DNA of 64,000 nt from an uncultured cyanobacterium (GTDB lineage: Bacteria; Cyanobacteriota; Cyanobacteriia; CACIAM-69d). A program made the position numbers and the translations under genes. Position 1 is the stretch's first letter. Each line of letters starts with the position of its first letter. Where the stretch lies: the NCBI GenBank assembly GCA_937883785.1, contig CALGDE010000038.1:1-64000 (forward strand). The letters run 5' to 3'. Below, in pieces: positions 44,460 to 50,333 of this stretch. The notes beneath the pieces were generated by a model. It was not told the origin of the DNA, ran no database searches, and saw nothing but the letters and a program-made list of their open reading frames with translations.

Positions 44460-47096
44460 TTAACGTGCCGGCTTCAGCTGACTGATGATGGTGGGGTCGG
44501 TGATTGCCTTGTCGTCAACCAGCAGAAAGGCTTTACTCAAAATAATCGACAGCATATTGTCTCCCTCAAATGGCAGAAAGATGCTACCGCCGTTGGGCTT
44601 GCGGTCCGGAACGATGCACAGGTACTGATCGTTGGGTTCCATCAGAATATTGCCGCTACCCAAGTGGATTTTGTAGGTGCGGATATGACCGCGCACCACT
44701 AGGAAGCGATCGCTAAAGGAGCAGCGATCGCGGATTTTCAGCTTCGGAATCAGGGTTTCCAATAGCTGGCGTCGGGTTTTCGCGGTGCCAGACAATTCAC
44801 CGAAGGAATAGCTAGTCCAATAGTCTCGATATCGCCCTTCAGGACCACCGTCGGACCAGTTGGGATCATTGCCCACGCTGGCGACGCCCACAAATAAGTC
44901 CACGTCCCGCAGGACTTCAGAGAGCACCAAAGGTGGAATCTGGTCGAGGGGGGTGGGGGTGTCTGGGTCGTCGCGATCGCGGCCATAGTCGCCGGAACCG
45001 GTATAGGCAAAGTTCTGCGCCGCATCGATGGGATAAAAACGCACTTGGTCCGTGGCGAGGTACCAATAGGTGCCGGTTTCGTTAGTATCCGAGCCGTAAT
45101 CTTCGCCGATACCGTCCACCCAAAATTCAGCACGTAAATTCCACTGGGGTAGGCTCAAGCTAGCAGGCGGAAAGCAATCATCCACCATCAGCCGTAGGGT
45201 ATTTTTCCAGCCGCGATGACCACAAAGGGCGCTGAACTGGTGCTGCTTCAAAATATGGGCAGCAAAGCGATTGGAGTAGATTTTCGTATTTTCTTCGGCG
45301 GCGGTTAGCAGATAAATTTCCCGGTGGGCTTGCTTAAAGGGCTGCTGAATTTCATGGTTCACCAACCAATTTCGCCAGGTGAGAATGGTGGCAGAGGATG
45401 CGTCGAGGGGATGCCACAGGCGCACTTGGGTGTGTTCGTTCAACTTCTCCAGGGGCTGATCATTAATATCCACCAGGGATTCGCCCAGCCAGATTCCCGC
45501 AGTTTCCTCACCGTTGGAGTTGGTAAACCACCAAATTAGCCGCCGCGCCAGGGTTCCCATCAACGGATGGTTTAAATAGCGCTCCTGCCAAGTGGGAAAG
45601 TTCCAGTTTTTTTGCTGCAAGTATACCGACTCCAGGCGATCGCGCTGGGCGGGCATCATCTTTTTGATATCCTTTGCCGCCTGCTTCAGCTCCTTTAACT
45701 CCTCGGCAAAATTGTCCTTGATCACCTTGGGCACTGACTTTTGTAGCTTACCGTCAGGCTTAATCCACCGCAGCACCGTTGAGCTGGTACCTGTCACCTC
45801 TAGCTCCGCCGTAAAGTCGCCTAAGGTTTCCCGTCGCAGCCCCACTTCTTCTAAGCCATAGGTGGGCACCGCCATTTCCTCAATTTCTTCCCGAGGCAGC
45901 CCTGCCCGTATCGCCGCCGCCGTCAATGCTTTTTCAATGCCCTTTTGCGCTGTCCCAAATTTCACCTTCACCTTCATCAGCGCCAACTGCCCGATCGCCT
46001 CTGTCCCTGGCATCTGCCCCAGCGCCCACACACAGGCGTTGCCCACTCGCACACAGCGCGGTCCCACCCCCGGCACCTTGCGGTAAGCGGACTGGGCTAA
46101 AGCACCGAGGGATCGCACCAGCTGTGCCCCCGCCGCCGCCTCTGTTTCTGGCAGCTTTGTCGAAACTAATGACGGACAAAGCCACACTAAGCCCTTCAAA
46201 ATATCGGCGTTTTTGTCGTTGATCATCAGGTTGGGATCTGGCTCCCATTGCGATCGTCGCTCTGCCGGGCGGGTGCGGGGCTTATCCAACAGGATCAACC
46301 AGTCCGCCAAAAAGTTCGTAACGTCTAAAGGATTTAATTTTTCTAGCTCGGCGTCTGCTTTTTTTGACCAGGTTTTTGAAGGCTTGGGCGCCGTGGCAAG
46401 GGTGCAGTGATCTAACAGTTCTGCCCAAATATTGCGGTCTTTTGCCGAAAGTTGTTGGAGGGTGGCGATCGCCCGGTCTGCCCAATATTCCCCCACCACC
46501 AGCGGTAGATCCAGCGATCCCTTCGGCAACAGTTTTTGCAGCTGGCTCAGATGTTTTCGCATTTGAGCATCTAGGGAATAGCGGTTGCCAAAAAACTCGC
46601 AGGCTCCCTTAATAGAATTCTCCAATTCCGGGGTCAGGGAATGGGTCTTGAGGTGGTTTTGGACAGCTTTAGTAAGCGGCCCTCCTCCCCCGTACAAGCG
46701 ACCATAGGCACAGAATTGATCGATAAACCGAATAAGGCTGTCGTGCTCAAAGGGAAGTTTGCGCTGGGTCAAACGGAGAAAAACTTCGTAGACTCGGCTA
46801 GTTTCTTGCCAAGAATAGCGAGGCTCAATTTTTTGACTTTCCGAACTCACGTCAGCATTAGCAACTTTGCACGCCTCCAAATCACGCTTTTGGTCAATGC
46901 ACCACTGGAGCATTGCCAGAGCCAAATCCCTTTGCTCCGATCGATCCAGCGCTTCGACCTCTTCACTGACGCTGAGATTTTTAATGCGATACTGCTCTGC
47001 GTAGTCCAAAGACTTGTTGTCAACCTGAGCAATTTCTTCAGTCAGCGCAAAATAATACGTATCCGGCGTTTCGTAGGTGTCGCGGGCGGCAACCAT
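44460..47096 (-). CDS. DUF4132-type protein (MolR-like)
   Basis: An 878-residue soluble protein. The C-terminal half matches my recollection of DUF4132 proteins (MolR family): LRAEFWVDGIGEDYGSD, TYWYLATDQVRFYPID, LSEVLRDVDLFVGVASVGNDPNW and a terminal domain with RFLVVRGHIRTYKIHLGSGNILM. The N-terminal 400 residues are helical and repeat-like, with no ATPase motif. The biochemical role is unknown; related genes occur near MoxR-type ATPase and vWA gene sets in other genomes, but none is present here. It follows the small gene at 47188-47583 on the same strand after 91 bases and is probably cotranscribed. The ATG at 47096 is used. Confidence 0.75.
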   Translation of the reverse strand: MVAARDTYETPDTYYFALTEEIAQVDNKSLDYAEQYRIKNLSVSEEVEALDRSEQRDLALAMLQWCIDQKRDLEACKVANADVSSESQKIEPRYSWQETSRVYEVFLRLTQRKLPFEHDSLIRFIDQFCAYGRLYGGGGPLTKAVQNHLKTHSLTPELENSIKGACEFFGNRYSLDAQMRKHLSQLQKLLPKGSLDLPLVVGEYWADRAIATLQQLSAKDRNIWAELLDHCTLATAPKPSKTWSKKADAELEKLNPLDVTNFLADWLILLDKPRTRPAERRSQWEPDPNLMINDKNADILKGLVWLCPSLVSTKLPETEAAAGAQLVRSLGALAQSAYRKVPGVGPRCVRVGNACVWALGQMPGTEAIGQLALMKVKVKFGTAQKGIEKALTAAAIRAGLPREEIEEMAVPTYGLEEVGLRRETLGDFTAELEVTGTSSTVLRWIKPDGKLQKSVPKVIKDNFAEELKELKQAAKDIKKMMPAQRDRLESVYLQQKNWNFPTWQERYLNHPLMGTLARRLIWWFTNSNGEETAGIWLGESLVDINDQPLEKLNEHTQVRLWHPLDASSATILTWRNWLVNHEIQQPFKQAHREIYLLTAAEENTKIYSNRFAAHILKQHQFSALCGHRGWKNTLRLMVDDCFPPASLSLPQWNLRAEFWVDGIGEDYGSDTNETGTYWYLATDQVRFYPIDAAQNFAYTGSGDYGRDRDDPDTPTPLDQIPPLVLSEVLRDVDLFVGVASVGNDPNWSDGGPEGRYRDYWTSYSFGELSGTAKTRRQLLETLIPKLKIRDRCSFSDRFLVVRGHIRTYKIHLGSGNILMEPNDQYLCIVPDRKPNGGSIFLPFEGDNMLSIILSKAFLLVDDKAITDPTIISQLKPAR

Positions 47097-47187: not shown

Positions 47188-47583
47188 CTAACCGCCCACA
47201 AGCGGCATTAGCTTGAGAAACGTTGCTGAGGTGTCTGGCTTTAGAACAATTTCCTGCTCCAAAGAGTCCGCCTGTTCGTCGTTGATTAACAAAATAAATC
47301 CGTTGTTTCTGAAAGCGGCGATCGCCCTTTCGTACTGGGTTTCCCAATCAATGGGTCGAACCCGTTTCATGCGATAGCCATTCAAGGTTTGTTCCGCATC
47401 CGTCGGCTGCACCAACCCCTGAAAAACGTCTGTTTGCCGCGCATTGTAATCTTTAACGTCCTGATAAACGCGACGGCGAATCAACTCCTGCACCGTAATG
47501 GTTTCCGTCAGAATATCCAACACAAAAACTGGGCGATCGCTGCCCAGGTTAGTGGCATCGCAAATAGTGACACGGTTAGCCAT
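47188..47583 (-). CDS. Small hypothetical partner of the DUF4132 protein
   Basis: A 131-residue protein without signal peptide or membrane segment. The N-terminal 50 residues (RVTICDATNLGSDRPVF and DILTETITVQELIRRRVYQD) show strand-turn-strand-helix order that could be a beta-grasp-like fold; this is an impression only. The rest is polar, with a C-terminal EQEIVLKPDTSATFLKLMPL segment. The ATG at 47583 is chosen over a TTG 14 codons upstream. Its position directly before the DUF4132 gene on the same strand suggests that the two act together. Confidence 0.6.
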   Translation of the reverse strand: MANRVTICDATNLGSDRPVFVLDILTETITVQELIRRRVYQDVKDYNARQTDVFQGLVQPTDAEQTLNGYRMKRVRPIDWETQYERAIAAFRNNGFILLINDEQADSLEQEIVLKPDTSATFLKLMPLVGG

Positions 47584-47796
47584 AGCTATTGTTAAAAAAG
47601 GAGCGTTAACAGCAGAACAGCTCACGAGCTTTCAATTGTTGTTGCCGAAATTTATGTACTTCAATCATTTTAGCAATCTTCCTTTCATGGGGGCACTTTA
47701 GCCTTCTACCCTTAAGCCCCCTTAATGAAACCTTGCGGCGATCGCCCAGAATCGCAAAGATAAGAGAGTAATGCCACATATGCAGGATCATCATCT

Positions 47797-48512: not shown

Positions 48513-50333
48513 TCAAGACGTGGGTTTGTTGTTTTTAATAACGGACCGATCATTGCCTTTGAAGGGCTTCTGAGATTGAAAGGTACGCCAGGTATTGCGT
48601 CCGCCTTCTTTCGCTTGGTATAGTGCCGCGTCAGCAAATTCAATGAGGGACTGGGGCGACTGACCCGCCTCAGGAATAATGCTGGCAATGCCGAGGCTGA
48701 CGGTCACCACATCAGCGTGGCGATGGATGGAGTCTGGGGCAGGAATAGCTAACTCTTGGATGGTGCGTTGCACTTGCTGGGCGATCGCCACCGCACTTTC
48801 CCCTCCAGTACGGGGCAAAATCACCGCAAACTCTTCACCGCCGTAGCGAGCCGCTAAACCAGAGAAACTTTCAACCGCTTGATGAATCGCTTGGGCCACC
48901 TGCTGCAAACAGCGATCGCCCTCCACATGCCCAAAGGCGTCATTAAAACATTTAAAAAAATCAATATCCACCAAAATCACCGTCAATGGACGCCGCTGCT
49001 GCATCATCAACTGCCACTCCTCATGGATGCAATCATCAAAGGCGCGACGGTTGGCAATTTGAGTCAGCTTATCCACCTTGCCCATTTCCCGTAGCTCAGC
49101 ATTTAGTGCCTCCAGCGATTGCACCATCCCCGCCAGCCGATCCGCCTGCGCTCGCACCTGGGAATGCAAATTTGCATGGTCCAACGCCACACTGAACTGG
49201 GCCGCCAACTGGCGCACAAAATCCACCTCCGTCGTCAACCAACGGCGCGTATCACCACACTGATGAATACACAACAATCCCCATAGAATCTCCCCATCAA
49301 ACAGCGGCACAATAATTTGAGCTCGAATTTGGAACTGCTCCAAAATCGTCACATGGCACTCCGACAAATTAGCGCCGCGAATATCATTTAAAACCTGTAG
49401 CCGCCCCTGCTGGTACAGCTTGAAATACTCGTCTCCAAAACAGCGATCGCGCACCTTACACATCAGCGCCGACTCGTAGGTGGGCAGCACACTTTCCGCA
49501 ATAAACTCGCCGTAATGGTAATTCGTCTCTAAATCAAAGCGAAAAATACCAACGCGATCCGCCGCCATTACCCGCCGTACCTCCTTAACCGTTGTTTTAA
49601 ACAGCACATCCAGTTCAAGGGAGTCACGAATTTCAGCGGTCAGATGCAGCAATAACCCCTGCAAAGCATTAGCCTGCTTAAGGGCCCGCGCCTTGTCCTT
49701 TGTATTTTTCAACAACTGGGACTGCTTCACCGCAACCCCTAGCTGGGACGCCACCTGGGACAGCAACATCATTTCATGCTCCTTCCACTGATGGGGTCCT
49801 GAATGCTGGTAAGCCCCTAAAATGCCCCAAAGCTTGTCACCCACAAAAATAGGACAGGTTGCATAGGCACGAATGCGAAACCGCTCTAACGTCTCCAAGT
49901 GGCATTTGGATAGGTTGGACTCATAAATATCAGAAACGTACAGCGCCCTATTTTGTCGAAAACATTCGCCTTGGGTTTCCTTAAGGTAAGTGTCACTCCA
50001 GGAGGATCCGGTCCTCCATACGCTTAGCTCCTCCCAGCCCGCCTCAATAAACTCAAACCCATCGACAAATTCCCCTCCCCACTCTGAGTTGAAGCGGTAC
50101 ACCGTTACCCGCTCAATGCCCAGAAGCCGGCAAGTTTCCTTGGTCGCCGTGCAAAAAATAGTTTTTGTGTCCAGGGACGCCCGAATTTTGCTGATGACGT
50201 TGTAAACCGTCTGCTGCTGGCGATTAACCGCCTCCAACTCGCTACGACACGCAGTCAATTGTTGCTCGAGCTGGGAAACACTTGGTAACCCCAGCGCCCG
50301 AGACACAGTCCCGGAGATAAGTCGACGAAGCAT
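48513..50333 (-). CDS. Diguanylate cyclase with two cyanobacteriochrome-type GAF domains
   Basis: A 606-residue soluble protein: coiled coil (about 18-42), GAF1 (about 50-205), linker helix, GAF2 (about 235-390), helix, then GGDEF (about 420-585). Both GAFs carry the bilin-attachment Cys-His pair of cyanobacteriochromes, C144-H145 in LSKCHLETLERFRIRA and C326-H327 in LSECHVTILEQFQIRA. GAF2 also has a canonical DXCF motif (D296-R-C298-F) and GAF1 a GECF variant at 122-125. The cyclase signature GGEEF is intact at 498-502, while the upstream RxxD product-inhibition site is missing. It should make cyclic di-GMP from GTP, probably under light control, affecting motility or aggregation. Chromophore binding is inferred, not shown. 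Confidence 0.85.
   Translation of the reverse strand: MLRRLISGTVSRALGLPSVSQLEQQLTACRSELEAVNRQQQTVYNVISKIRASLDTKTIFCTATKETCRLLGIERVTVYRFNSEWGGEFVDGFEFIEAGWEELSVWRTGSSWSDTYLKETQGECFRQNRALYVSDIYESNLSKCHLETLERFRIRAYATCPIFVGDKLWGILGAYQHSGPHQWKEHEMMLLSQVASQLGVAVKQSQLLKNTKDKARALKQANALQGLLLHLTAEIRDSLELDVLFKTTVKEVRRVMAADRVGIFRFDLETNYHYGEFIAESVLPTYESALMCKVRDRCFGDEYFKLYQQGRLQVLNDIRGANLSECHVTILEQFQIRAQIIVPLFDGEILWGLLCIHQCGDTRRWLTTEVDFVRQLAAQFSVALDHANLHSQVRAQADRLAGMVQSLEALNAELREMGKVDKLTQIANRRAFDDCIHEEWQLMMQQRRPLTVILVDIDFFKCFNDAFGHVEGDRCLQQVAQAIHQAVESFSGLAARYGGEEFAVILPRTGGESAVAIAQQVQRTIQELAIPAPDSIHRHADVVTVSLGIASIIPEAGQSPQSLIEFADAALYQAKEGGRNTWRTFQSQKPFKGNDRSVIKNNKPTS

Follow-up and report, generated by a model that had tools for sequence, protein, structure and literature searches.

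Does a single cyanobacterial protein read two colors of light, one in each of its sensor domains, and pass both to one diguanylate cyclase? The question is raised by a gene on contig CALGDE010000038.1 (GCA_937883785.1), of which positions 1-64,000 of the forward strand were analyzed (64,000 nt; the window). An initial annotation had described its product as two cyanobacteriochrome (CBCR) GAF domains on a GGDEF cyclase, and had proposed that each GAF senses a color of its own. Read letter by letter, the open reading frame of 606 amino acids begins with ATG and is preceded by an in-frame stop five codons upstream. Pfam recognizes GAF in two stretches (8e-45) and GGDEF (5e-48), with no further domain, while comparison with known structures matches GAF1 and GAF2 to CBCRs (1.6e-42 and 4.6e-34) and the GGDEF domain to WspR (4.4e-43); with E-values of this order the domain matches are not due to chance. 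An AlphaFold2 model computed from the protein together with 17 relatives (mean pLDDT 80) comprises two GAF-like units and a GGDEF unit with long helices between them. Its best full-length match in the PDB is 5llw, with a poor global superposition (TM about 0.3); its single-domain matches are WspR (3i5b, target TM 0.93) and the CBCR GAF structures 5dfx (0.83) and 3w2z (0.79).

48513..50333, minus strand: complete coding sequence, 606 amino acids, GAF1-GAF2-GGDEF (reading of the open reading frame and Pfam).
49623..49781, minus strand: predicted continuous helix, residues 185-237, linking GAF1 to GAF2 (AlphaFold2, block pLDDT 73-89).
49083..49235, minus strand: predicted helix, residues 367-417, linking GAF2 to the cyclase (AlphaFold2 model).

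The gene is flanked by a CBS-domain gene and metG in the window and in a sister species of the same genus, and not in other relatives; as this neighborhood is conserved in the sister species alone, no operon partner is proposed. An Rfam search of the 64-kb window gave no match, and the signals in promoter and terminator scans did not rise above chance. Nearby on the minus strand lie a gene for an 878-amino-acid DUF4132/DUF7737 protein (44460-47096) and, beside it, a 145-amino-acid open reading frame with no Pfam or NCBIfam match (47188-47625).

The first sensor domain carries the following features.

49716..50201, minus strand: GAF1, residues 45-206, extended red/green (XRG) CBCR domain (1.6e-42 to 5zoh and 6bhn; XRG clade 100/99).
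49983..50000, minus strand: W112-S-D-T-Y-L117, WXDXXL motif (alignment; motif definition from PMC11284453).
49959..49970, minus strand: G122-E-C124-F125 at the position of the GGRY motif, with C124 in place of AnPixJg2 Arg301 (alignment).
49899..49904, minus strand: C144-H145, the GAF1 bilin attachment pair (aligned to AnPixJg2 C321-H322).

The WXDXXL motif defines the XRG lineage (PMC11284453). GAF1 has this motif without the second cysteine of a DXCF motif, has the Cys-His pair, and in a maximum-likelihood tree of 97 CBCR GAF domains, several deep forks of which are weakly supported, lies inside the XRG clade (100/99). Aligned to AnPixJg2, its residues W112, D114, C144, H145, Y157 and Y175 stand at W289, D291, C321, H322, Y334 and Y352; R301 and Y302 are replaced by Cys and Phe. 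The initial annotation had taken the GECF of GAF1 for a DXCF motif with Gly in place of Asp, a reading that spacing and alignment rule out: the DXCF cysteine lies 28 residues before the bilin cysteine in GAF2 (C298 to C326) and likewise in TePixJ, whereas C124 lies only 20 before C144. GECF occupies the GGRY position, and the true DXCF register is D114-T115-Y116-L117, in which the Asp is kept and the second Cys has become Tyr. The pocket arginine of GGRY is present in 48 of the 51 XRG domains and replaced by Lys in one; the remaining two are the GAF1 domains of the window protein (C124) and of its sister (Gly). C124 is thereby ruled out as a conserved functional cysteine. Since the GGRY arginine is usual in the clade and not defining, the membership of GAF1 in XRG stands.

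By its WXDXXL motif and its place in the tree, GAF1 is an XRG single-Cys domain, for which we predict bilin binding and a red/green photocycle. Three residues (Cys, Val and Ile) enable the conversion of phycocyanobilin (PCB) to phycoviolobilin (PVB) in unusual XRG domains; GAF1 has W112, T115 and G173 at these positions, none of the three, so ordinary PCB chemistry is expected. In AnPixJg2, five residues including Arg301 are listed as crucial to the stability of the cofactor (PMC8156171); GAF1 lacks the equivalent of this arginine and might therefore hold its bilin poorly.

The second sensor domain differs in its cysteines.

49158..49670, minus strand: GAF2, residues 222-392, DXCF dual-Cys CBCR domain (4.6e-34 to CBCR structures; ortholog clade 100/95).
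49437..49448, minus strand: D296-R-C298-F299, DXCF motif and second Cys (ungapped alignment to the DPCF of TePixJ).
49353..49358, minus strand: C326-H327, the GAF2 bilin attachment pair (alignment, AnPixJg2 C321-H322 register).
49269..49271, minus strand: C355, third Cys, on the D-ring face at the position of AnPixJg2 A350 (conserved in the DXCF branch of GAF2).

The alignment of GAF2 with TePixJ is gapless over the DXCF motif and the canonical cysteine, and the assignment of a dual-Cys DXCF domain made at the outset holds. Both Cys-His pairs, C144-H145 and C326-H327, are present and align exactly on AnPixJg2 C321-H322; comparison with characterized CBCRs, which the initial annotation had put forward as a check, places both pairs on the chromophore site, in its favor. 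In the tree, GAF2 belongs to a DXCF branch that adjoins XRG and is separate from PixJ- and SesA-type sequences. Most domains of this branch share a Phe at the beta-2 position, a Phe at the helix position and Cys355; in GAF2 the two are F277 and F334. The SesA- and PixJ-type sequences L035, L038 and L066 have Val, Leu and Ile at these three positions; L066 is read as PixJ because it is closely similar to a stretch of TePixJ. A cysteine at the C355 position occurs in 20 of the 31 DXCF-type domains examined and is absent from the SesA- and PixJ-type sequences. The two Phe positions have been linked to red/green and teal-DXCF photocycles (PMC5240096), and from these two positions and the branch placement we predict, with moderate confidence, that GAF2 is of the blue/teal rather than the blue/green type. 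The assignment of GAF1 to the WXDXXL (XRG, red/green) domains strengthens the proposal of two colors.

The output domain retains its catalytic apparatus.

48588..49082, minus strand: GGDEF cyclase domain, residues 418-582 (Pfam 5e-48; WspR 4.4e-43).
48828..48842, minus strand: G498-G-E-E-F502, catalytic A-site motif (WspR alignment and reading of the sequence).
48858..48869, minus strand: S489-F-S-G492, where the RxxD inhibition site is expected (WspR alignment and comparison with relatives).

The metal and substrate residues, GGEEF and the series DIDFFK..ND..GH, match those of WspR. As first annotated, GGEEF is intact at 498-502 and RxxD is missing at the I-site, where S489-F-S-G492 stands; RxxD-like words at residues 430 and 538 fall outside this site. 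Outside the genus, RxxD is kept by all 12 relatives with a readable GGDEF domain and GGRY by 13 of 13; only in the genus of the window, in the window protein and its sister, are both missing. Mutation of the RXXD arginine in SesA abolishes product inhibition (PMC5871770). The window protein is best read as a cyclase that would have weak or no product feedback, although secondary inhibition sites could still operate.

A search of 390 genomes of the class gave 25 with a match of 1e-105 or better. Of these, two belong to the genus of the window, and the sister protein is 85% identical to that of the window. Eleven, from other families (L041-L051), encode a complete GAF1-GAF2-GGDEF protein that is 49-53% identical, and the XRG-DXCF-GGDEF layout is thus a conserved family; a further copy is interrupted by a contig end (L011), another is broken (L058), and the rest are mostly longer multi-GAF proteins. 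Distribution is patchy, with the protein in two of six genomes of the window's own order, and a search of contigs found, besides the sister species, just one GGDEF protein, which is unrelated. Because the GAF1 domains cluster together in the tree, as do the GAF2 domains, the two domains probably came together once and have since been inherited or transferred as a unit. Two members deviate from the layout. In L034 (genome G045) the family XRG GAF is fused to a GGDEF domain that lacks its first part, and GAF2 is absent, by deletion or assembly collapse. The broken copy L058 (genome G298) is frameshifted, has lost its GAF1 bilin cysteine (QFH) and is apparently decaying.

Between the window protein and its sister, dN/dS is 0.084 for GAF1, 0.065 for GAF2 and 0.129 for GGDEF, rough values given a dS of about 0.9. 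Under purifying selection of this kind, the changes at RxxD and at the GAF1 arginine look tolerated or selected, and not like decay. In the sister ortholog, codon 450 is an in-frame TAG (L010, 1148-1150), one base different from the TTG of the window; this may be a true nonsense mutation or an artifact of a draft assembly in 730 contigs.

The window's own genome has 24 GGDEF and 14 EAL matches. In a survey that combined searches with motif-level inspection, and in which GGDEF reading frames without a GAF match were read in part, the window protein was the only GGDEF protein found with a CBCR GAF and a bilin cysteine; the other CBCRs found were histidine kinase-like or multi-GAF reading frames. 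The former include L078 and L079 (contigs C120 and C128), with CBCR GAFs that have DPCI or DPCV for DXCF, followed by C-H; in L081 (contig C157), four or more tandem GAFs read VQDTYL-GGRY-CY. Three ferredoxin-dependent bilin reductases are encoded, two in tandem at 35501-37111 of contig C104 (L074, L075) and one on contig C100 (L073), so chromophore should be available; the set suggests synthesis of phycoerythrobilin and phycocyanobilin. The initial annotation had also drawn a parallel with SesA and its light control of cell aggregation. SesA (Tlr0924, from Thermosynechococcus) is a CBCR-GGDEF enzyme whose output route has been described as passing via a PilZ-cellulose synthase. The functional comparison is a fair one, but the aggregation output is weakened: no PilZ domain was detected in the window's own genome by a search that was positive in control genomes, including Synechococcus elongatus, and the PilZ-cellulose synthase route is thus unsupported there.

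Taken together, the protein is likely a soluble two-sensor CBCR diguanylate cyclase, gated by two colors of light, that has lost its primary inhibition site. GAF2 would bind bilin via C326 and form a second, reversible bond via C298; its dark state should absorb blue (violet-blue) light and its photoproduct teal (or green), with phycoviolobilin the probable chromophore. Light-driven changes in each GAF would travel through the unbroken linker helices to a GGDEF dimer and so to cyclic di-GMP; by analogy with SesA, and with PadC for control through the helix, the two photocycles would bias a shared helical stalk and, through it, a single cyclase dimer. Loss of the primary inhibition site would make output more dependent on light and phosphodiesterases than on product feedback. 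More tentatively, and with considerable doubt on our part, this may be a natural light-gated cyclase without feedback, in which the two photocycles are the main on/off control and the ratio of colors is read as cyclic di-GMP. Feedback-free SesA has been obtained only by mutation, and when light-activated it rendered Synechocystis cells inviable.

A rival reading concerns GAF1, which in this genus might be a non-photochemical or poorly chromophorylated dimerization domain, leaving only GAF2 photoactive and the protein a one-color (blue/teal) cyclase like SesA. The Arg301 equivalent, present in 48 of 51 XRG domains, has given way to Cys or Gly in the two species of the genus, motif residues neighboring it are also altered, and of the two GAFs of Synechocystis PixJ1 the second alone binds a bilin (PMC5812497). 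Yet GAF1 retains W112, D114, C144, H145 and Y175, its dN/dS of 0.084 indicates strong purifying selection, and we consider a silent GAF1 unlikely. The same substitution allows another reading, in which C124 is an unusual second cysteine of GAF1 and the photocycle is a non-standard dual-Cys one instead of red/green. The residue stands in the bilin pocket at AnPixJg2 R301, and CBCRs have repeatedly gained extra cysteines near the chromophore (PMC11284453). This seems very improbable to us, as the sister protein, otherwise 85% identical, has Gly there, the position is not among the second-Cys sites named in the CBCR literature consulted, and the arginine replaced is described as cofactor-stabilizing.

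That the whole protein is decaying into a pseudogene-like sensor of low activity also appears improbable, if a little less so. The in-frame TAG of the sister copy, the losses of RxxD and of the GAF1 arginine, a dN/dS higher in GGDEF than in the GAFs, and the frameshift and lost GAF1 cysteine of the distant relative L058 would all fit decay. Against it, the coding sequence in the window is unbroken and retains every catalytic motif, dN/dS is 0.129 or lower across GAF1, GAF2 and GGDEF, and the sister TAG is a single base from TTG in a 730-contig draft.

The protein points to a conserved family in which sensors of predicted red/green and blue/teal types stand in series on one cyclase, a compact natural case in which to study how two photocycles may be joined in a single output and a possible starting point for multi-color cyclic di-GMP tools. 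The cellular role of product inhibition in diguanylate cyclases has been called an unresolved issue (PMC5871770), for which a genus without the inhibition site, set beside relatives with RxxD, offers a ready comparison.

Among the closest known systems is SesA, with a DXCF CBCR GAF directly before a GGDEF domain of the GGEEF type in a light-controlled diguanylate cyclase. Its DXCF cysteine we take to be residue 499. SesA is a blue light-activated enzyme, and R676 is the arginine of its RXXD motif (PMC5871770). L035 and L038, in which the DXCF cysteine and the RXXD arginine are 177 residues apart, fit both positions and are read as its likely orthologs. In both, the N-terminal sensor region is longer and looks CBS- and PAS-like by eye, RxxD is present, and there is one CBCR GAF, with a C-Y pair, and no XRG GAF; the window protein, with C-H, two CBCR GAFs and no RxxD, is ruled out as a SesA ortholog by its architecture and the missing RxxD. 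GAF1 resembles AnPixJg2 and Slr1393g3 in its WXDXXL motif, bilin Cys-His and pocket tryptophan and aspartate, and differs from them in lacking the Arg-Tyr of GGRY and in having Tyr, Leu, Leu and Thr at AnPixJg2 positions 293, 308, 318 and 336. GAF2 shares with TePixJ and other DXCF CBCRs the gapless register of DXCF and canonical Cys; it is set apart from the TePixJ type by its two Phe residues (beta-2 and helix), a short insertion, the third cysteine C355 and a separate branch beside XRG. Proteins with several differently colored CBCR modules are well known (PMC9614035), and Cph2 of Synechocystis has been described as a four-color sensor (PMC5812497); two-color integration is thus not new in kind, and the XRG-DXCF-GGDEF architecture may have been described before. 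Cph2, like the window protein, ties two photosensory modules on one polypeptide to cyclic di-GMP turnover, but its phytochrome module is of the GAF-PHY type, it contains an EAL domain along with two GGDEF domains, and its two sensors are on separate catalytic parts. PadC, the phytochrome-activated diguanylate cyclase of Idiomarina (5llw), with which the model superposes as poorly as given above, has a bacteriophytochrome sensor and no tandem CBCR GAFs, yet it shares the order of bilin sensor, helical linker and GGDEF domain.
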